NCBI GenBank assembly: GCA_036504095.1 | Contig: DASXVS010000017.1 | Span: 62,001 to 126,000 of the forward strand | Source: Armatimonadota bacterium | GTDB lineage: Bacteria; Armatimonadota; DTGP01; JAKQQT01 | DNA: 64,000 bases | Direction of reading: 5' to 3' | Shown: piece after piece, positions 36,671-47,934 of the stretch | How the letters are laid out: the number at the start of each line of letters is the position of its first letter | Numbering within the stretch: the stretch's first letter is position 1 | The notes under the pieces: generated by a model | Told to the model about the DNA's origin: nothing | What the model saw: only the letters and a program-made list of their open reading frames with translations | The model's database searches: none | Made by a program: the position numbers and the translations under genes

Positions 36671-38125
36671 CTATTGCACGCGGTCGCGGATTAGGCCCAC
36701 CACGCGGCCCTGGATCTGGAAGTCGTCCGTTGCGCCCACGGGGATGTCGCCGAATTCCGGGTTCTCGGGGTGGAGGATGACGCCGTCGTCCGAGCGGTGC
36801 AGGCGCTTCACCGTCACTTCGCCGTTCAGAAGCGCGGCGATGATTTCGCCCTCGCGCGGCTCGCCTTCGAGGGGGCGGATGCGCAGTAGGTCCCCATCGA
36901 GGACGTGGGCGTCGCGCATGCTGTCTCCGGTGACCTTCAGTAGGAAGTCTCCCGCGTCTCCCCGGGCGTCGATCGGCATCGCGAAGTAGCCGTTCACGTG
37001 TTCCTGCGCGCTGATGGGGATGCCGGCGGCAATGCTGCCGAGGATGGGAAGCGCGGCCATTTCGGGCAGGGATTCATCGCTGGAGAGGCCGCCGGCGACG
37101 ATGCGCAGCACGGGCCGTCCGGTCTCTTCGTCGTCGTCCAGCGTCCAGTGCGACGGGGTGGCGCCATCGCCGCCGGTCAGCTCGATCTCGCCAACGTACA
37201 CTCGATTCTCGATTCCGCGCGCACGGCTGAACAGGGAATCGCCCACCGCCTGGCCTTTCGCGGACGCGAACTCATCCATTTTGGCGCTCACGTTATCGCA
37301 AGCGTGCAGCACGACGGCCTCCGGAATCGCCGGGAGCATCGGCGCGCCCCACTCGCGGGTGCCCTGGTGCGTGAGGATAAGGTGCAGGACCGCGGCTCGC
37401 AGGTTCGGCGGGAAGTCCGGGATGCCTTCGATGACGCGCTGAACCATCGCCGCGCCCATCACTACGTGCCCGACGAGGCCGCCTTCAACGGTGGTGCCGA
37501 AGTCCGCGCGCCCGATGTCCATTTCCCCCGTCTTGCCGATGTCGTGCAGGATCGCACCCGTGAGGAGCAGGTCCCGTCGAAGGCCCGGGGCGCGTTCACA
37601 GACGGCCATACAGAGGTCGCACACTTCCAGCGTGTGCGCCAGCAGGCCGCCGACGCCTACGTGGTGCATCTTCTGTGCCGCCGTTGCCTGGCGGAACGCG
37701 GCGGTGAAACCGGGCAGCTTGAAGACGCGGCGCAACAGCTCCACCAGGTTCGGGTCCTTCACTGTGTGGGCGAGGCCGCAGAAAGCCTTCCACATCGCTT
37801 CGCGATCTCCCGGGAACTCCGGGATGAAGCCGTCGGTGCGATTGGGGTCGGCGCCGGGCCGTATCCAGTCCGCAATGATACCCAGCTTTCCATTGTACAG
37901 CTGGACGTGTCCCCTGATGTGCACGCAGTTTGCGCTGGCGATACGGTTCCACTCCGTGTCGCCCACCTTCCACTGCTTCGCGCTAATGCTCCCCGTGGCG
38001 TCCCGGATTTCAAGTAGAGCGTATGGTTCGCCGTTCTTGCCCGTTGGACGCGAGCGTTCCACCACGCCGAACTCGTCGTCCACCATGTCCCCGTCCACCA
38101 GATCAATCACGCGGATCCCGGCCAT
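36671..38125 (-). CDS. YhaM-like HD-domain exonuclease fused to a LexA-type S24 self-cleaving peptidase
   Basis: A 484-residue protein in one uninterrupted frame. Residues 1-95 form an OB-fold nucleic-acid-binding domain (VVERSRPTGKNGEPYALLEI, then GSISAKQWKVGD). Residues about 110-310 form a YhaM-type HD domain: HHVGVGGLLAHTLEV (154-168), AILHDIGKTGE (191-201), VGHVV (His220), LILTHQGTREWGAP (249-262) and LHACDNVSAKM (273-283). YhaM enzymes are 3'-5' exonucleases. Residues about 358-484 are a complete LexA C-terminal domain: scissile Ala-Gly in ILGSIAAGIP (Ala367-Gly368), nucleophile in VTGDSMRDA (Ser402), and catalytic Lys in EVTVKRLH (Lys440). LexA's helix-turn-helix is absent. GGAGG supports ATG 38125. 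A LexA-box-like site lies at 38160-38173. RecA-triggered self-cleavage separating nuclease from peptidase is inferred. Confidence 0.9.
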   Translation of the reverse strand: MAGIRVIDLVDGDMVDDEFGVVERSRPTGKNGEPYALLEIRDATGSISAKQWKVGDTEWNRIASANCVHIRGHVQLYNGKLGIIADWIRPGADPNRTDGFIPEFPGDREAMWKAFCGLAHTVKDPNLVELLRRVFKLPGFTAAFRQATAAQKMHHVGVGGLLAHTLEVCDLCMAVCERAPGLRRDLLLTGAILHDIGKTGEMDIGRADFGTTVEGGLVGHVVMGAAMVQRVIEGIPDFPPNLRAAVLHLILTHQGTREWGAPMLPAIPEAVVLHACDNVSAKMDEFASAKGQAVGDSLFSRARGIENRVYVGEIELTGGDGATPSHWTLDDDEETGRPVLRIVAGGLSSDESLPEMAALPILGSIAAGIPISAQEHVNGYFAMPIDARGDAGDFLLKVTGDSMRDAHVLDGDLLRIRPLEGEPREGEIIAALLNGEVTVKRLHRSDDGVILHPENPEFGDIPVGATDDFQIQGRVVGLIRDRVQ

Positions 38126-38159: not shown

Positions 38160-38173
38160 CGAACAAATGTCCT
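38160..38173 (-). promoter_or_regulatory. Possible LexA (SOS) box upstream of the HD/LexA-peptidase fusion
   Basis: CGAACAAATGTCCT compares with the CGAAC-N4-GTTCG type box used by LexA/DinR of Gram-positive and several other phyla: left half exact, right half GTCCT (3 of 5). It is 35 bases upstream of the fusion's ATG. Weak as a single site. Confidence 0.35.
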
Positions 38174-38228
38174 ATTTCACAGTTTATCATGCTCCGCCAA
38201 TCCTTTCAACTCGCACGATTTCACCGTC

Positions 38229-39631: not shown

Positions 39632-39935
39632 CCGGGTCCCGGGTGCCGGGTTTCGAGTTCGGGGTTCCGAGTCCTGAGTTCCGAGTTCCGAGTTCCGGGT
39701 CTCGAGTTCCGGGTTCCGAGTTTCGAGTTCCCGGTTCCGAGTTCCGGGTTCCAGGACTCATGCTTCGGTCGACCGAATTCGGCCTGCCTGCTATTGACTA
39801 CTGTCCACTGCTTACTGCCTACTGCCTACTGCCGACTGTCTACTGACTACTGCCTACCGCCGACTGTCTACTGACTACTGACTACTGACTACTGCCTACC
39901 GTCTCCTGTCTCCTGCCTCCTGCCTACTGCCCGGA
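39632..39935. repeat. About 300 bp of two adjoining word-repeat arrays
   Basis: Positions 39632-39760 are near-tandem copies of GTTCCGAG and GTTCCGGG words with small changes. Positions 39789-39935 are near-tandem copies of GACTACTG, CTACTGCC, CGACTGTC and CTCCTGCC. The first array is the family of 28206-28275, 29980-30078 and 53831-53900; the second recurs in brief at 51907-51932. The second array writes the stop codon (complement of CTA at 39924-39926) of the small membrane protein 39924-40172. With 39525-39631 it forms the roughly 400-bp gene-free stretch upstream of the STN-like gene. Confidence 0.8.
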
Positions 39936-40172
39936 GATGAAGCTCGTCGACGTTGGCGGGTTTCCCAGGTTCCAGTTCTGCAGCGTGTGCTTGCCGATGA
40001 TCGAATACATGATGAGCGTCGTGACAATCACCGCCACGCTGAGCCCCACGATGATGAGCCACGTGCGGAAATCGCCCCAGCCGTGGTCAATCCGGGGCCC
40101 GGCTGCCCCCCCCGCGGGGTGGATGCCATGGTCCCTGTCGTCACCGTTACCGGATAGTTTTCCCTGTTTCAT
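39924..40172 (-). CDS. Small single-helix membrane protein in the oxidase operon
   Basis: 82 residues: a polar, His/Asp-rich N terminus (GDDRDHGIHPAGGAAGPRID), one membrane helix (WLIIVGLSVAVIVTTLIMYS) and a short outer tail. I do not recognise the family. The ATG at 40172 is preceded by GAGGAGCGTCCC. It is the last gene of the leftward ACIII/cbb3 operon, 13 bases after 40186-40473. The position suggests an oxidase accessory subunit or assembly factor in the manner of CcoQ/CcoH. The stop codon lies in the repeat array, so the last residues may not be ancestral. Confidence 0.55.
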   Translation of the reverse strand: MKQGKLSGNGDDRDHGIHPAGGAAGPRIDHGWGDFRTWLIIVGLSVAVIVTTLIMYSIIGKHTLQNWNLGNPPTSTSFISGQ

Positions 40173-40185
40173 GTTGGGACGCTCC

Positions 40186-40473
40186 TCAGTAGCCCAGGCC
40201 ATTGATGGCGATATTCGCGACATAGCCGATCATCCAGATCACCAGGACGATGCTCAGGATGATCACAAAGACCGTGGGCTTCCTGTGGCCGCCCTCGATT
40301 ATCCCCGCGTAGTGATCGATGTGTTCCTTGTCGTCGTCGCGGGCATCGCTTTCCAGCCGTCCCTGACGCATGGCCGCGTAAAGGCCAAGCACGAGGATCA
40401 AGCCGCCCACGATGATCGCAACGATGACATGCCAATCCGTTAACCAGGGATAGAAACCGGTGCCTCGGTTCAA
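40186..40473 (-). CDS. Small two-helix membrane protein in the oxidase operon
   Basis: 95 residues with helices VIVAIIVGGLILVLGLYAAM and VFVIILSIVLVIWMIGYVAN joined by an acidic loop (ESDARDDDKEHIDHYAGIIE). The YAGIIEGGHRKPTVF stretch with a following helix resembles the small hydrophobic subunits often found with bacterial heme-copper oxidases, but I cannot name a family. The ATG at 40473 overlaps the upstream stop (40470) by ATGA. It is placed between the CcoO-like gene and the last small gene of the operon, so a structural role in the cbb3-type oxidase is likely. Confidence 0.6.
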   Translation of the reverse strand: MNRGTGFYPWLTDWHVIVAIIVGGLILVLGLYAAMRQGRLESDARDDDKEHIDHYAGIIEGGHRKPTVFVIILSIVLVIWMIGYVANIAINGLGY

Positions 40474-40769
40474 TGGCGTTCCTCCGCCCCCTTGTGCAGC
40501 GTATCAGTCACCTGGATGTGGGAGCCGATGACCACAGCGGCGATGGGGATACCGATGCCTATTCCGAGCAGAATCGCCATGGCCAGCGCGACAACCGGAA
40601 CGCGCCTTGCCTGGATGGGTACATCGGGCGACCCCGGTATCTCCAGCGGCAGTTCCGCGGCCCGCCTGTTATTCGAGAGCTGGCCCGTGCGCCACATCGC
40701 CCAGATGATGACGATCACCATCCCGATCCCGGGGGCCATATGCAGCAATACATGTCCTAGTGAGTGCAT
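40470..40769 (-). CDS. Small two-helix membrane protein downstream of the CcoO-like gene
   Basis: 99 residues: an N-terminal helix (PGIGMVIVIIWAMWR), a polar loop (LSNNRRAAELPLEIPGSPDV) and a second helix (VVALAMAILLGIGIGIPIAA). The loop position and size recall CcoQ/CcoS-like accessory proteins, but there is no sequence motif that proves this. The ATG at 40769 follows AAGGAG by eight bases, so it has its own ribosome site, 46 bases after the CcoO-like stop. Together with the next two genes it makes a trio of small membrane proteins at the end of the oxidase operon. Confidence 0.6.
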   Translation of the reverse strand: MHSLGHVLLHMAPGIGMVIVIIWAMWRTGQLSNNRRAAELPLEIPGSPDVPIQARRVPVVALAMAILLGIGIGIPIAAVVIGSHIQVTDTLHKGAEERH

Positions 40770-40815
40770 GACAACCACTCCTTCTGAGACGTCAAGGCAT
40801 CCTGCCTGAAGTAAC

Positions 40816-41952
40816 TCATTGAGGGTTCTCCTCCGACGCCGGTCCGTTGTGGTCCGGCCGCGTGAGCCTGGAGCGAGTGCCTGACGGCCGGACGAACGAC
40901 GTGCCGTTCTCCTTATTGCGCTTGTTGGCGGCGTCCTGCTCCGGCTGTAACGCGGGCGAAGTGGGCGGCGGCGCCGTCACCTTGTCTGGGTCCGGCGGTG
41001 TGTTGCTCAGGTCCACCGGCTCCTGAATTTCGTCCTCGCCGCGCGGAGTTGTGTTGCCGTCGTCGTGCCCGATGAATGTCGTGGCGACATAGTTCGAGAC
41101 ATCCCAGATCTTTTCGCTCTCAAGCTCACGTTTGAACGGCATCATGGCCGTGCCGTTGATGCCATTCATGATCTGATAGTAGAGCAGCCCGCCGGAAGCG
41201 CCGAGGCGCCTCAGCGTGCTGAAGTTGGCCGGCTTGGGGTACAGGAACTTCGCGGAAGGCCCGTTGCCGTCGCCGAAATTGCCGTGGCAGCCGATGCATT
41301 CCTGCTCGTAAACGAATTTGCCCCGCGCAAGAGATTCGGCGGTCGCGCCGTACGGATTCGGCATGGTGCGCCATTGCGCCGGGACCAGCGTATGCAAATA
41401 GGCGAAGTTGGCATCCGGGCCGCGCTCATACGCCTTCGCCAGCGCGGCGTGCCATATTTCCATGCGTTTCACGCGCGCGTCGGCCAGCTTGCCGCCGAGG
41501 CACTGGACGTATGCGATGAGGGCGTCGCGCTCGTCTTTCTTCAGGTATTTGAACTCCGGCATGATCGATGCGGGGCGGGTGTAGCGCGGGTTGAAGAAAT
41601 GGGCGATGTGCCAATCATTTGGCCGCATGCCGCCCTCCTGAGAGAGGTCCGGCCCGTTCCGCGAGGAGCCAAGCAGGTGCGGCTTGTCGTAGTAGTAGTC
41701 GCCCGGCTCCGAAATGCGCGTGGCGGTGTTATCCCAGTCCTGCGGCCGCACGTATTGCGAGTGACAATAGATGCACCCGTTCTGGATGTAAATCGCGCGA
41801 CCTCTGGCCTCGAGCGCCGTGTACGGCCTCGCGATATCCGATGGCTTATCCACGTCCTGACGCGTGATCCAGGGCAGAACGGCGACGCTGAACCCCGCCG
41901 CCGCCAGGATCAGGAGGCCGCCGACCGTGATCACCTTCTCCGTCATGCGCAT
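40816..41952 (-). CDS. ccoO: cbb3-type oxidase cytochrome c subunit (CcoO) fused to a second cytochrome c domain
   Basis: 378 residues. An N-terminal membrane helix (VITVGGLLILAAAGFSVAVL) is followed by a CcoO domain with heme-c site CIYCH (60-64), SQYVRPQDWD and the distal region GPDLSQEGGMRPNDWHIAHF. A second cytochrome c domain follows with CIGCH (219-223), then NGINGTAMMPF providing the likely Met ligand. The last 75 residues are a Pro/Asp-rich linker-like tail. Normal CcoO is about 200 residues with one heme, and CcoP is a separate diheme protein. No ccoP is present, so the fused domain may replace it. GGAGGAC precedes ATG 41952. It lies 52 bases after ccoN. Confidence 0.9.
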   Translation of the reverse strand: MRMTEKVITVGGLLILAAAGFSVAVLPWITRQDVDKPSDIARPYTALEARGRAIYIQNGCIYCHSQYVRPQDWDNTATRISEPGDYYYDKPHLLGSSRNGPDLSQEGGMRPNDWHIAHFFNPRYTRPASIMPEFKYLKKDERDALIAYVQCLGGKLADARVKRMEIWHAALAKAYERGPDANFAYLHTLVPAQWRTMPNPYGATAESLARGKFVYEQECIGCHGNFGDGNGPSAKFLYPKPANFSTLRRLGASGGLLYYQIMNGINGTAMMPFKRELESEKIWDVSNYVATTFIGHDDGNTTPRGEDEIQEPVDLSNTPPDPDKVTAPPPTSPALQPEQDAANKRNKENGTSFVRPSGTRSRLTRPDHNGPASEENPQ

Positions 41953-42004
41953 GGCTTCGTCCTCCGATTGCGCATCGGCGGAGCCGCGGCATCATCTCTG
42001 CGGG

Positions 42005-43426
42005 TCATTGGGCGGCCTCCAGTCCTATCGGCTTGAGGTCGACCGGCGCGATGTCGCGCGTGCTCATCAGCGGCGCGTCCTCCTCCACGTCGGGCTTCTT
42101 CGAGTAAAGCGTTCTGAGCACGTTGTACAACAGAATCCAGGCGCCCGCGAAGATGGTGACGCCGTCCAGCGCCCGCAAAGTCATGTAGACGCTCAATTCC
42201 GGCAGCACTCGGTAAACCGCCTCTCCATTCAGCCAGGCCCCTCCCTGGATGAGACCGGCGGTTGTGAGGATAATCATGAATCCGCCCTGGCCGATAAGCA
42301 TCAGCCAGTACTGGAAGTTTGCCAGCCTCACGCTCCAGATCGGTTTGCCGGTCACCTGCGGAAGCACGTCGTAAATGATTCCCACCGCCATGAAGCCGCC
42401 GAATCCGAGCAGCCCGGCGTGCGAGTGGCCGATAACCCAGTTCGTGAAGTGGGTGAGCCGCTGAACCGACATCAGTGACTGGAGACTGCCCTGGGTGGAC
42501 ACGATGAAGTACCAGATGGAGCCGGCGAACATGTACTTCAATGTCATCGACTGCTCGATCCGCCCCATTCGCCCGCGCATCGTCAGCCAGATGTTCGAGA
42601 GGAACACCCAGACCGGAATCAGCAGAAGCATGCTGTGGACCGTCGCCACAACCTTCTCCCAATCCGGGATCGGCGCCTGTAGCAAGTGGTGCGTGCCGGT
42701 GGGCGCGTAGTCCGTCACCAGCAGCCAGAAACCGATGAGCGACAGCGTGTGGCTGTAAAGCGGTTTCCGCACTTCGCGCGGTATCACGTAATACGCGGCG
42801 CCGATCGCCATCGGGGTGATCCACAAGCCGAAGATGTTGTGGCCGTAGAACCAGTGCCACACGGCATCATACAGGCCGCGGTGCACTCCGGTGCTGTTGA
42901 GGAACGCCCACTCCGTCAAGGTCCACACGAGCGCGCCGAGGAAATACCAGACCGACACATAGATAAGCGGCTCCTTGCGGTTCGCAACGGTCTTGAACTG
43001 AACGTAAAGGAGCATGGCCAGCGCGATGATGCTCAGCCAATTGAGCGGGCCTTTGTACTCGGCGTATTCGTGCGACGTGGTGATCCCCACCGCCAGCGAA
43101 CAGATGCCGGCGAGCTGCGAGAAATTCCAGATCCACATCGCCCCATTGGCTATCTTCTCCGACCACAACGTGGTCTTGGAGAGCTGCGGCACAATATGGA
43201 GGCCGGCGCCGATGAGCACCATGGACAGGAATCCGTACCAGACCGTGTTCACGTGCATCGGACGGATCCGCCCGAATACGAGGAACGGGATTCCGCCCAG
43301 GAAATCCGGCGAAGCCATTTCCGTCGCCGCCAGGAGGCCGAACGTGACGCCGACCGCCATCCATATGGCGCCGGAGACCATCCAGTTTCGTGCCGCGCTT
43401 CCCGGCCTATCGTCGAGTAATCGCAT
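42005..43426 (-). CDS. ccoN: cbb3-type cytochrome c oxidase catalytic subunit I
   Basis: A 473-residue heme-copper oxidase subunit with about twelve membrane helices. Ligand segments are FGRIRPMHVNTVWYG (low-spin heme His), FYGHNIFGLWITP (Cu-B His region), TGTHHLLQAPIPDWEK (His-His pair for Cu-B), and TNWVIGHSHAGLLGFGGF (high-spin and low-spin heme histidines). This is the terminal O2-reducing proton-pumping subunit, normally of high O2 affinity. GAGGGA precedes ATG 43426. It follows the ActE-like cytochrome gene by 24 bases, so the ACIII and the oxidase share one transcript. Confidence 0.94.
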   Translation of the reverse strand: MRLLDDRPGSAARNWMVSGAIWMAVGVTFGLLAATEMASPDFLGGIPFLVFGRIRPMHVNTVWYGFLSMVLIGAGLHIVPQLSKTTLWSEKIANGAMWIWNFSQLAGICSLAVGITTSHEYAEYKGPLNWLSIIALAMLLYVQFKTVANRKEPLIYVSVWYFLGALVWTLTEWAFLNSTGVHRGLYDAVWHWFYGHNIFGLWITPMAIGAAYYVIPREVRKPLYSHTLSLIGFWLLVTDYAPTGTHHLLQAPIPDWEKVVATVHSMLLLIPVWVFLSNIWLTMRGRMGRIEQSMTLKYMFAGSIWYFIVSTQGSLQSLMSVQRLTHFTNWVIGHSHAGLLGFGGFMAVGIIYDVLPQVTGKPIWSVRLANFQYWLMLIGQGGFMIILTTAGLIQGGAWLNGEAVYRVLPELSVYMTLRALDGVTIFAGAWILLYNVLRTLYSKKPDVEEDAPLMSTRDIAPVDLKPIGLEAAQ

Positions 43427-43450
43427 ACTTCCCTCAAAATGCCTGCAAAG

Positions 43451-44188
43451 TTAGTTCGTATCCCCCGTTGGCGGCATCGGCGCCGCCGATTCGGCGGGTC
43501 CCGGCGCTTCCGCCGCGCCGCTCAGGCGGAGCGACCTGATGTAGGAAACCACAGCCCATCGATCGCGCTCGCTGATCGTACCCCGGAAGGCGTGCCACTC
43601 GCGCGGCAGGTATTTCCGAGCCTCCGGGATGGGGGTCGACAGGATACCGTTGGTAATCTTGTAGTACATAGTCCCGGCCGACAGCGACTGCGCCTTACGG
43701 TTCGTGAGGTCGGGCGGGCGCGGGATGTAACTCTCGCCCGCGGGCCCATCTCCCAGCCCGTTAACACCGTGACAGAAGGCACAGTTCTCGGCGTAGACCA
43801 CTTTGCCGGTTGTGAGGGCCTTCGGGTCGCCGGCCGGCGGGTTTTTGATGCGGGCGGCCGCCGCAGGGACCGCGCCGTCGGCCTGGTCCGGATACGCGTG
43901 CGGAACGCCTGTCCTCGGCACCGCGCCCGCCACGACAAACTGCTGGGTTGGCGGCGTCTGGTAGCCCGTGGAGTCGGCCGGCTGGTTGTAGCGCATGCTC
44001 CAAGGCGGCAGTTCGTGTCCGAAATAGAGAACGCCCGGAAGGACGAGCGCCACCACGACGATCACGAACACCAACCCCGTGATCAGGCGAAGGTTACGCT
44101 CCTGGAAGCGCCGCTCCCGGATTTCATCGTCCGGCGGAATCGGCGATCCGCCCGCGCTGTAGTCCTGATTGTCGGTTATCTGTGGCAT
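43451..44188 (-). CDS. actE: Monoheme cytochrome c, ActE-like subunit of alternative complex III
   Basis: 245 residues: a polar N terminus, one membrane helix (LITGLVFVIVVVALVLPGVL), then a cytochrome c domain with CAFCH in VVYAENCAFCHGVNGLGDGP, SAGTMYYKITNGILSTPIPE and EWHAFRGTISERDRWAVVSY. ActE is the monoheme cytochrome that hands electrons to the terminal oxidase. Preferred start ATG 44188, overlapping the ActA stop (44176); a GTG at 44197 is possible. The membrane anchor replaces the lipobox of many ActE proteins. It sits directly upstream of ccoN. Confidence 0.87.
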   Translation of the reverse strand: MPQITDNQDYSAGGSPIPPDDEIRERRFQERNLRLITGLVFVIVVVALVLPGVLYFGHELPPWSMRYNQPADSTGYQTPPTQQFVVAGAVPRTGVPHAYPDQADGAVPAAAARIKNPPAGDPKALTTGKVVYAENCAFCHGVNGLGDGPAGESYIPRPPDLTNRKAQSLSAGTMYYKITNGILSTPIPEARKYLPREWHAFRGTISERDRWAVVSYIRSLRLSGAAEAPGPAESAAPMPPTGDTN

Positions 44189-44697
44189 ACGACACAATCC
44201 GTAGGGGCTTTCTTGTATTTATTGGTGCGGTGGCACGTTACGCACCAGCCCATGTTCATCGGGGTTGCCTGGCGCGCGCGGTCCATCTTTCTCATATCAC
44301 CGTGGCAGGTCTCGCACGGCACGCCGGCCGAGATGTGCGCCTTGTGCGTGAAGTAGACGAACCCGGGGAGGCGGTTCACCCGTTCCCATGGGACGCCCTC
44401 GCCCTTTTCCCAGAAGGCCTTGAGCTTCTTGATCTCCGGGTGGTTCGGGATGATGACCCTGTGACAGCGGATGCAGAGCTGGGTGGCGGGCATGCCGGCG
44501 AACGACGACTGCGTCGTCTGGGCGTGGCAGTACTGGCAGGCAATCTGCTTGTCACCCGCGTGGACGCGATGGAAGAAATCCACCGGCTGCTTCGGCGCGT
44601 TCACTCCAAACGCTTTGGATGACCTGACGAACAGCAGCGGGAGCAACGCGATCAGGATGACAAGCCCGAAGATGACGTTTCGCGTCTCCCACCTCAT
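44176..44697 (-). CDS. actA: Pentaheme cytochrome c, ActA subunit of alternative complex III
   Basis: 173 residues with an N-terminal membrane anchor (VIFGLVILIALLPLLFVRS) and five CxxCH heme sites: CQYCH, CIRCH, CETCH, CVTCH and CVVCH. The five-heme count matches ActA of Rhodothermus and Flavobacterium. Additional distal-ligand histidines are present (FHRVHAGD, FTHKAHIS). The ATG at 44697 overlaps the ActF stop by ATGA. In described operons actA comes first; here it follows actF. Confidence 0.92.
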   Translation of the reverse strand: MRWETRNVIFGLVILIALLPLLFVRSSKAFGVNAPKQPVDFFHRVHAGDKQIACQYCHAQTTQSSFAGMPATQLCIRCHRVIIPNHPEIKKLKAFWEKGEGVPWERVNRLPGFVYFTHKAHISAGVPCETCHGDMRKMDRARQATPMNMGWCVTCHRTNKYKKAPTDCVVCHR

Positions 44698-45977
44698 ACT
44701 TCAACCCCCCGTGTGGCAAGCCCGCGCAGGAACAGCGGATCTTCAACCGGATACACCGGCACGCGGCGCATCAGCCACAGGTACGGAAGGGCGACCGCAC
44801 CCATGAAGCCGATCGTAACGGCAACTTCCACCAGCCCGAAATCCGATGGACCGAGCGTGCGCATGCCGGGGAATATGTCCAGGAATCGCTGGATCAGGAT
44901 GCCGGCCAGGGCGAGCGCCCCGATGGCGGCGATGGCGTTTGGCGTTCGCTTCAGCCCTCGCAGGAACAGAAGGGCGAACGGCACGATGAACGAGCAGGCG
45001 AGCATCGTATAGGCGAGCGGCTCCCACGGCTGCGTCCGCCACCGCGCCGCAACGTAGGCAGCCTCCGTGGGAAGGTTGCCCATCCATATCACGAAATACT
45101 GAGACCAGTTCACGTACGCCCAGAAGATGCTTGTGCCCCAGAGCATGTTGCCGAGATCGCGAATGGTCGCCACCGGGAACAGCTCATTCAGGGGCTTCAG
45201 GGAGCGCCAGCTGCAAAGAAGTATCGTCGCGGCGGCAAACGCTCCGAAGTATTCCCCGATCCAGTAGATCACCGGAAACATCGTGCTGCGAAAGCCGGGG
45301 TTCAACGACATCTCAAGGTCGATCGCCAGGATCGACATGCCGAACACGTACACCAGAAGGTAGACCGGCGCCAGCACCTTGAGCGTCAGCATCGACCGCG
45401 CCTTCTCTTCGCCCCGGCCCTTCCATCCCCGCGTCGCCCAACCCGCCAGGCCCGACCGCGAACTGACCCCATCTTCGATCATCGCGCCGAGGTCCGGCCG
45501 GATGCTGCTCCGAAGGCTCCAGATCGCGAGGAACGAGGCGATGGCCAGAATCGCTGCGTCCCGGATGAACAGGGGGCCGATCTGCAGCCACGGGCTCCGG
45601 TCTGCGTCGCCCAGCCACCAGAATATCTCGTGCCGGCCAAACCAAAGGATGCCGAGCGCGATCAGCGAAACCGGCGTGAACGCCGACAATCCGGCCGTGA
45701 TGCGCTGGATCGGCCGCCCCCACCACGCATGGCTGACGTTGAAGGTGGCGGTCATGGCCATCGACGCCATCGACAGGCCGGTCCAGAACAGGAAGTTGGC
45801 GAGGAACGCGCCCCAGGCCCGCCCCGGCGAAAGTGTCAGGCCGGCCGCGAAACCAATGACCCCCACAAGGATGCACACCAGAGCCGCCGCCTGAACCCAG
45901 GTAGCGGGGGAATACAGCGTGGACGCGTAGCGCTCCAGCCGCCGCACATCGCCCGGTTGCAGTTGTTGATCGCTCAT
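44694..45977 (-). CDS. actF: Alternative complex III integral membrane subunit ActF
   Basis: 427 residues with about ten hydrophobic helices, beginning after MSDQQLQPGDVRRLERYAST. Blocks typical of ActF (NrfD-related) are TLSPGRAWGAFLANFLFWTG, SHAWWGRPIQRITAGLSAF, and MLWGTSIFWAYVNWSQYFVI. ActC and ActF form the membrane core and a possible proton path. ATG 45977 overlaps the ActD stop (45974) by ATGA. It lies downstream of actD and upstream of actA. Confidence 0.92.
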   Translation of the reverse strand: MSDQQLQPGDVRRLERYASTLYSPATWVQAAALVCILVGVIGFAAGLTLSPGRAWGAFLANFLFWTGLSMASMAMTATFNVSHAWWGRPIQRITAGLSAFTPVSLIALGILWFGRHEIFWWLGDADRSPWLQIGPLFIRDAAILAIASFLAIWSLRSSIRPDLGAMIEDGVSSRSGLAGWATRGWKGRGEEKARSMLTLKVLAPVYLLVYVFGMSILAIDLEMSLNPGFRSTMFPVIYWIGEYFGAFAAATILLCSWRSLKPLNELFPVATIRDLGNMLWGTSIFWAYVNWSQYFVIWMGNLPTEAAYVAARWRTQPWEPLAYTMLACSFIVPFALLFLRGLKRTPNAIAAIGALALAGILIQRFLDIFPGMRTLGPSDFGLVEVAVTIGFMGAVALPYLWLMRRVPVYPVEDPLFLRGLATRGVEV

Positions 45978-46519
45978 TGGTTCACCTGCAATCGACCGAG
46001 CCCGGCATGGTGGATATCTACGGTTTCCGTGGCGCCCGCTGCCAGCAGCTCCCCGGCCGCCCGGCCGCGTTCGGTCTCGTCGCTGCACGCCAGATACAAT
46101 GCGAACCTGTCCACTCCCATCGGCGGGCGATACGCGTCGCTGGGGGTCAGGTCCGGCAGGCGCGACATAAACAGAAACCCGATGACGGAAGCGATCGACC
46201 CGAACAGAACCATCAATTCGAAAGCGACCACCAGATACGGCGGGAGCGACGTGATCGGCTTGCCGCCGACGATCACCGGGTAGTCCCAGGACATCCAGAT
46301 CGTCATCGCAAGGGCGGCCGCGATGCCGGACAGGCCGCCGACGAGGCTGAACCACCGGACCCCGCTGGTGCTCGGGTTCAGGGCGTAGATCGCCGACATG
46401 TCCGGGATGGGCGTGTACACCTCCGGGCGCATGCCGCGGATGCCGTTGAAGTGGTCGATGCCGGCGCGCAGGGCGTCCGGATCGTCGAAGTAGCCCACGA
46501 CTCCTCGAAGCTCGCTCAT
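45974..46519 (-). CDS. actD: Alternative complex III subunit ActD (DUF3341)
   Basis: 181 residues. A cytoplasmic N-terminal domain (GVVGYFDDPDALRAGIDHFN, EVYTPIPDMSAIYALNPSTS) is followed by two membrane helices (WFSLVGGLSGIAAALAMTIW and LVVAFELMVLFGSIASVIGF) and a C-terminal soluble part. This is the DUF3341/ActD layout. ATG 46519 overlaps the ActC stop by ATGA and the stop overlaps the ActF start. In the complex ActD is a peripheral/membrane subunit without cofactor. Confidence 0.92.
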   Translation of the reverse strand: MSELRGVVGYFDDPDALRAGIDHFNGIRGMRPEVYTPIPDMSAIYALNPSTSGVRWFSLVGGLSGIAAALAMTIWMSWDYPVIVGGKPITSLPPYLVVAFELMVLFGSIASVIGFLFMSRLPDLTPSDAYRPPMGVDRFALYLACSDETERGRAAGELLAAGATETVDIHHAGLGRLQVNQ

Positions 46520-47934
46520 GATTCGGTCGCCTCCGCGGGCTTGACCCCGCCGGGCACCCTCGGATGCTCGTGCGCTTCCTCAATCGCGATGTCCTCGCGA
46601 TGCTCCAGCAGGATATCGCGCTTCAATTCTGCGATCGGCAGCACCGGGAGGAACTTGGTGAACAGCAGGAAGAAGAACATGAACCAGCCGAGACTGCCGA
46701 GCGTGATGCCGACTTCAACCGGGCGGAAGTGATAGAAGGTGGGCGCCCACGCGTAAGGGTTGTAGTCCCGCGCCAGGCTGCCCGCGATGATGTTGAACCG
46801 TTCCAGCCACATGCCGATGTTGATGATGATCGAAACGACGAACAGCGTGGGGATATTCCGTCGCGCCGGGCGCCAGAAGAGGATGAGCGGGGCGATCACG
46901 TTGCAGAAGTTCATGGCCCAGAACGGCGAGGCCCAAGTCCCGCGGACTTTGTTCCACAGGTCGGCAAGGTCGGAGGGTTCCCGCCCGTAGAGCGTCATGA
47001 AATGTTCGCTAAGGTACGAGTATCCCACCACCATCGACATCAGCAGCGTGAGCTTCGCGATCTGCTCCATCCGGTCGATGGTAATGTATTCCTGCAGCGC
47101 CAGGTTCTTGCGTAGCGGGATCAGGAGCGTCAGCACCATGGCTAATCCGGACAGGATGGCGCCGGCCACGAAGTACGGGGCCGAAATCGTGGAGTGCCAC
47201 CCGGGAACGATGGCGGACGCGAAGTCCCAGGATACCACGGAGTGGACCGACACAACCAGCGGCGCCGCAAGGCACGCCAGCACGGAATACGCCATCCAGT
47301 AGTGGCGCCACTGCTTCCCGCGCCCTTCCCAGCCGACCGACAGCAGGCCGTAGATGGTCCGCTTCCACCCCTTCGAACGATCGCGGACGACCGCCACATC
47401 GGGGATCAGCCCGAGCCAGAAGAACAGTGTGGAAACGATGAAGTACGTCGTGACGGCGAAGACGTCCAGAACGAGCGCCGACCGGAAATTGATCCACAAC
47501 ATACGCTCGTTGGGATACGGCATCAGCCAGTACGCCCGCCATGGCCGGCCGAGGTGGATCAGAGGGAACAGGCCGGCCGTCATAACCGCAAACAGGGTCA
47601 TCGCCTCGGAGGCGCGGCTGAACGCGGCGCGGAACGGCGCACGGAACAGGAACAGAAAGGCCGAGATGAGCGTGCCGGAGTGGGCAATTCCGATCCACCA
47701 GACAAAGTTGGTGATATACACCGCCCACATCATCGGGTGCATCAGGCCGCTCATGCCCATGCCGTACTTCAGCTGGTACCCTTCCGATATGGCTCCGACC
47801 AGAATCAGGAAGGCGCAGAACGCGACGCCGGCCATCCAGCCGAGGCTGTACGACTGCATGGGCCGCAGCACATCGTCGGTGACCTTCCTGTATGCCTCGC
47901 CGTTCGGCGCGTTTTGGTGGGTATGCTCGTGCAT
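46516..47934 (-). CDS. actC: Alternative complex III quinol-binding membrane subunit ActC (NrfD family)
   Basis: 472 residues from ATG 47934 (ATG at 47946 also possible). Ten membrane helices of the NrfD/PsrC type with GMGMSGLMHPMMWAVYITNF, VWWIGIAHSGTLISAFLFLF, PLIHLGRPWRAYWLMPYPNE and LWERFNIIAGSLARDYNPYA. His and Asp/Glu residues in the early helices are consistent with quinol binding next to the ActB 3Fe-4S cluster. It follows actB by 23 bases and overlaps actD. Confidence 0.94.
   Translation of the reverse strand: MHEHTHQNAPNGEAYRKVTDDVLRPMQSYSLGWMAGVAFCAFLILVGAISEGYQLKYGMGMSGLMHPMMWAVYITNFVWWIGIAHSGTLISAFLFLFRAPFRAAFSRASEAMTLFAVMTAGLFPLIHLGRPWRAYWLMPYPNERMLWINFRSALVLDVFAVTTYFIVSTLFFWLGLIPDVAVVRDRSKGWKRTIYGLLSVGWEGRGKQWRHYWMAYSVLACLAAPLVVSVHSVVSWDFASAIVPGWHSTISAPYFVAGAILSGLAMVLTLLIPLRKNLALQEYITIDRMEQIAKLTLLMSMVVGYSYLSEHFMTLYGREPSDLADLWNKVRGTWASPFWAMNFCNVIAPLILFWRPARRNIPTLFVVSIIINIGMWLERFNIIAGSLARDYNPYAWAPTFYHFRPVEVGITLGSLGWFMFFFLLFTKFLPVLPIAELKRDILLEHREDIAIEEAHEHPRVPGGVKPAEATES

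Follow-up and report, generated by a model that had tools for sequence, protein, structure and literature searches.

RecA filament binding triggers the self-cleavage of LexA, UmuD and phage repressors, and to our knowledge cleavage of the LexA type is known almost solely in repressors and in UmuD. The C-terminal domains of LexA dimerise, and its N-terminal fragment carries an ssrA-like end that directs it to ClpXP. UmuD, an S24 protein under SOS regulation, lacks a DNA-binding domain and has its function altered by RecA-triggered cleavage. Self-cleavage without RecA was described for IrvR of S. mutans, a LexA-like S24 transcription regulator (PMC7101444). In S. aureus, YhaM was described as an exonuclease that depends on Mn, is active as a hexamer and also forms dimers (PMC11347170). 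Here, a gene is described in which a nuclease of the YhaM type and a self-cleaving peptidase of the LexA type are encoded in a single reading frame.

A YhaM-type nuclease joined to a LexA C-terminal domain

The gene was found in a window of 64,000 nucleotides, the whole stretch of DNA analysed, from the genome here called G000 (Table 1). Its ORF, on the minus strand, which the initial annotation did not specify, begins with the ATG at 38125, ends with the stop at 36671 and is intact, requiring neither a stop nor a frameshift. The claim of that annotation that a YhaM-type OB fold and HD domain are joined in one frame to a LexA peptidase was borne out by concordant Pfam, NCBIfam and PDB matches. 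The NCBIfam model for YhaM (PRK13480) matched residues 6-310 with E 2e-43, and since the score of 148.8 bits is under the equivalog cut-off of 460, the protein is referred to as YhaM-type and not as an equivalog. The closest solved sequence to this N-terminal half was that of YhaM 9h3f (residues 12-310, E 3e-39). At the C-terminal end, the NCBIfam model for LexA (TIGR00498) matched residues 355-481 with 114.2 against its own cut-off of 110.95, and the closest solved sequences were LexA 7b5g, 1jhh and 8trg (residues 338-481, E about 1e-23). The NCBIfam model for UmuD (PRK10276) gave 62.5 against a cut-off of 110. The Pfam LexA_DNA_bind domain, present in the LexA of G000 itself, had no match in the fusion, in agreement with the initial annotation, which had reported the DNA-binding domain missing.

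The two halves were modelled apart with AlphaFold, as monomers, the S24 part of the full-length model being unusable, and the structure predictions left out the fusions from the whole-genome sets. The OB-HD half was modelled with a pLDDT mostly >90, the beta strands of the OB fold being predicted with high confidence, and YhaM 9h3f was clearly its best PDB match (TM 0.88 by target length). The S24 half was closest to the RecA filament-bound LexA 8gms (TM 0.85 by target length, 2.1 A). In alignment with E. coli LexA, residues A367-G368, S402 and K440 matched its Ala-Gly, Ser and Lys, and the scissile bond, nucleophile and catalytic lysine previously assigned were thus present and correctly numbered.

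Table 1. Positions in the window of the fusion gene, its domains, its predicted cleavage residues and its upstream elements.
Feature	Position	Strand	Evidence or remark
Fusion gene, 484 aa: OB fold and HD domain (YhaM-type nuclease) with LexA C-terminal self-cleaving peptidase	36671..38125	-	ORF, Pfam, NCBIfam and PDB matches
OB fold, residues 20-86	37868..38068	-	Pfam tRNA_anti-codon, 24.9 bits, slightly below cut-off 27
HD domain, residues 162-281	37283..37642	-	Pfam E 4e-14; model pLDDT mostly >90
Peptidase_S24 (LexA C-terminal) domain, residues 360-476	36698..37048	-	Pfam E 3.5e-28; TIGR00498
Predicted scissile Ala367-Gly368	37022..37027	-	Kept in 9/10 fusions
Nucleophile Ser402	36920..36922	-	Kept in 10/10 fusions
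General base Lys440	36806..36808	-	Kept in 9/10 fusions; Arg in G073
Promoter-like TTGAAA-N17-TAAACT, TG ahead of -10	38181..38209	-	1 found vs 0.1 expected in shuffles
LexA operator-like site GAACAAATGTCC	38161..38172		8 nt past -10, 35 nt ahead of ATG

Distribution of the fusion and conservation of its catalytic residues

When 291 genomes of the host phylum were searched with a profile, the fusion was recovered in ten of them: the source genome G000 and G001, G051, G070, G071, G072, G073, G074, G075 and G077. These contained ten complete copies and one cut by a contig end, the latter being a second copy in G075 that leaves the contig directly before the cleavage site. The carriers span three families (f1, f14 and f22). 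A smaller search, of 61 genomes, gave full-length fusions in G001, which belongs to the same family as the source genome (43% identical), and in G051 of another family. In a second phylum (392 genomes; the phylum of the Planctomycetes MAG L135), all of the matches listed ended by model position 338, and no fusion was among them. A pattern-limited search of other phyla gave 80 loci, none labelled as the host phylum, and the S24 domain was present on the nuclease ORF in none of these. Two long ORFs with S24 domains, L329 and L330, were shown to be plain LexA inside long open frames. Neither the 50,697 phage records nor the 72,556 plasmid records had a match spanning both halves, and none of the eight YhaM relatives on viral contigs carried S24; an origin of the fusion in phages or plasmids was rejected for want of a copy in these phage, plasmid and viral records. 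The phage defence role suggested in the initial annotation was not supported either, given that lack of mobile copies, the absence of a shared defence neighbourhood, and a PADLOC search that returned no known anti-phage system at the fusion and only a weak Cas3-HD match (16 bits).

In the tree based on the nuclease half, all fusions grouped in a single clade (97/99), which also contained a few unfused rows, and when more rows were included, three unfused sequences from one genus of f14 were also located inside the fusion clade. Because fusions and unfused members share this clade, their history would be that of a single old fusion followed by several losses, or of a few gains. One origin of the S24 halves was not rejected in the S24 tree (AU p 0.32). 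The tail PLVGRFW of the unfused sequences L322-L324 was considered as a remnant of LexA and rejected, since it fits the usual C-terminus of YhaM better.

The HD residues H154, H164, H194-D195, H220, H253 and D277 were invariant in all ten fusions and are common to unfused YhaM sequences; H154 sits slightly outside the Pfam HD span. The complete Ala-Gly/Ser/Lys set, on the retention of which in relatives the initial annotation had made its reading depend, was found in nine of the ten complete copies. Among these nine, just 17 of 130 S24 columns were invariant, and these include Ala366, Ala367, Gly368, Ser402 and Lys440. In the remaining copy, that of G073 (L197 4227-5573, minus strand), the cleavage loop is missing and the Lys is replaced by Arg, while the Ser and the remainder of the S24 domain are kept. 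Judged by these residues it is a natural non-cleavable version of the fusion, from which it appears that an S24 domain can be maintained when cleavage is lost.

Promoter, candidate SOS genes and gene neighbourhood

Ahead of the fusion gene, a promoter-like element and a LexA operator-like site were identified (Table 1). The LexA-box matrix was trained on three sites only, one from the G000 lexA gene and two from an imuB-like gene, which avoids circularity. With this matrix the fusion site ranked first of the 63,989 positions in the window, with a score of 13.9, the runner-up having 11.8. In a 12-kb stretch of G001 (about 12,100 positions), the sites of rank 1 and rank 2 were located at -89 and -47 from the fusion start. 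The box of imuB likewise lies closely behind a -10-like element, in a layout like that of the fusion promoter. The plain motif GAAC-N4-GTTC showed no enrichment in the window (31 found against 26 expected), and the operator assignment therefore depends on the trained matrix together with the recurrence in G001. As top-ranked sites of the LexA type lie upstream of the gene in both genomes, the fusion gene of f1 probably combines induction in the SOS response with self-cleavage of its product, as umuD and lexA do. The connection to DNA damage inferred in the initial annotation thus gained independent support from a promoter site in G000 and G001. Upstream of the fusions outside f1 no strong LexA box was seen, and SOS control of the fusion gene may therefore be local.

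The genome of G000 encodes a separate canonical LexA (L001) with a DNA-binding domain and one RecA, and separate LexA-type proteins were encoded in all the fusion genomes checked except G001. In the latter, a MAG of about 92% completeness, LexA-type boxes lie ahead of the fusion although no separate LexA was seen, and the fusion was the only full-length S24 protein found.

Other LexA-type boxes were noticed in G000 and in further loci. Two lie at 1534-1591 of L241, on contig C48 of G000, upstream of the imuB-like gene (at 1586). This gene belongs to the IMS family and is followed downstream by a dnaE2-type polymerase gene, and the two genes are the predicted SOS mutagenesis set of G000. In L053, a perfect GAACAGATGTTC box at 1501-1512 is located beside a -10-like TATAAT and ahead of a gene at 1609-2082, the 157-aa product of which has no Pfam match; the gene is a candidate SOS gene, and its designation as DinB-like was dropped for want of Pfam support. 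L052 has intergenic LexA-type boxes at 1501-1512 and about 1563-1580, before the gene of a small helix-turn-helix protein (1653-2045), also an SOS candidate.

The gene order hrcA, small BON-like gene, fusion and divergent ferredoxin gene was shared by G000 and G001. The neighbours differed in the other families, and no repair or defence gene recurred around the fusions. No polymerase gene that might encode a UmuC-like partner adjoined the fusion. Elsewhere in the window, positions 39924-46583 encode membrane and haem-binding (CxxCH) proteins with the appearance of an operon for a cbb3-type oxidase and an alternative-complex-III-like complex, unrelated to the fusion.

Proposed control of the nuclease by DNA damage and comparison with known systems

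The reading that we favour, with modest confidence, is that of a YhaM-type 3'-5' exonuclease under two levels of control by DNA damage, a LexA-repressed promoter and a RecA-triggered self-cleavage that changes the nuclease activity. In f1, LexA would repress the fusion promoter and the fusion would be made during the SOS response. RecA filaments would trigger self-cleavage of its LexA C-terminal domain at Ala367-Gly368, parting the nuclease half (residues 1-367) from the S24 half (residues 368-484), and the activity of the nuclease would change. As the relatives of the enzyme are active as hexamers, the likeliest mechanical explanation would be a restraint or re-tethering imposed by the S24 dimer. 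The protein would operate in the manner of UmuD with a nuclease as the effector, and activation, by release from the S24-imposed assembly and in line with the release of the nuclease half foreseen in the initial annotation, is only slightly favoured over destruction as the effect of cleavage.

The architecture, the conservation of the catalytic residues and the operator-like site are the observed basis of this two-level model. It is supported by the S24 half scoring above the LexA cut-off with a model closest to RecA-bound LexA 8gms, by the cleavage set being kept in nine of ten copies in a domain with so few invariant columns, and by the presence in G000 of RecA and of a LexA with its own DNA-binding domain. 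It is weakened by G001, which has the best boxes and shows no separate LexA, by an operator matrix built from three sites, by the want of strong boxes ahead of the fusions outside f1, by the non-cleavable copy of G073, and by the known S24 self-cleavage without RecA in IrvR (PMC7101444).

Cleavage might instead dispose of the enzyme. The nuclease half would end in Ile-Ala-Ala, which is ssrA-like, and its degradation would continue for as long as RecA filaments persist, the pool being refilled through the SOS promoter; the enzyme would then act in undamaged cells and during recovery, as LexA does. We consider this somewhat less likely, although a serious alternative; lexA itself has both an SOS box and a self-cleaving product. 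The nine cleavable copies all have Ala366-Ala367, but Ala-Ala-Gly is the LexA cleavage consensus anyway, and its conservation is therefore no argument for a degron.

A dimerising or structural role of the S24 domain, with a cleavage that is incidental or too slow to matter, is distinctly improbable. The dimerisation of LexA C-terminal domains would suit such a role, and in G073 the domain is retained although the scissile loop is gone and the Lys is an Arg, but the nine other copies keep every cleavage-only residue at pairwise identities of about 35-45% or less. Self-cleavage independent of RecA, upon another stress, has a precedent in IrvR (PMC7101444) and would accord with f14 and f22, where the stretch past the cleavage site is unlike LexA and no LexA box was seen; in the family of G000, however, the S24 half is above the LexA cut-off and the promoter has a LexA box, and we hold this explanation to be as doubtful as the preceding one. 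That two genes were joined by a sequencing or assembly error, an objection which the initial annotation had itself raised, is practically impossible and was rejected, since the same in-frame, intact ORF in independent assemblies of ten genomes from three families excludes chance joining.

Returning to the two-level model, we tentatively propose that the fusion may belong to a new class of effectors of DNA damage, in which LexA controls the promoter of a nuclease gene and RecA triggers the self-cleavage of the nuclease polypeptide. If true, SOS signalling would act directly on the decay of RNA or single-stranded DNA, beyond transcription and the choice of polymerase. With an enzyme cut from its own regulatory domain, the degradation of RNA or DNA would be coupled directly to DNA damage; the fusion would be a natural damage-switched nuclease and would link YhaM to the SOS response.

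The initial annotation knew of no described protein with this architecture, and likewise no description of a YhaM and LexA combination was found in the open full-text literature, outside which most subscription journals lie. The parts are known, and their combination and the double SOS control are, as far as found, new. With YhaM/Cbf1, the Mn-dependent 3'-5' exoribonuclease of B. subtilis and S. aureus, the fusion shares the OB and HD architecture, the HD residues and the fold, but YhaM stops after the HD part whereas the fusion continues for about 165 further residues of linker and LexA peptidase. IrvR is comparable as a self-cleaving LexA-like S24 protein and differs in having no nuclease. 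With LexA, the fusion has in common the complete C-terminal self-cleaving domain with its Ala-Ala-Gly site, Ser and Lys, as well as an SOS-box-like operator in its own promoter, and the DNA-binding domain of LexA is replaced by the nuclease. Like the SOS-regulated UmuD, the fusion is an S24 protein that lacks a DNA-binding domain, is probably under SOS control and would change its function on RecA-triggered cleavage; UmuD, however, works via a polymerase as its partner and has a short N-terminal arm removed, whereas the fusion would lose a whole nuclease.
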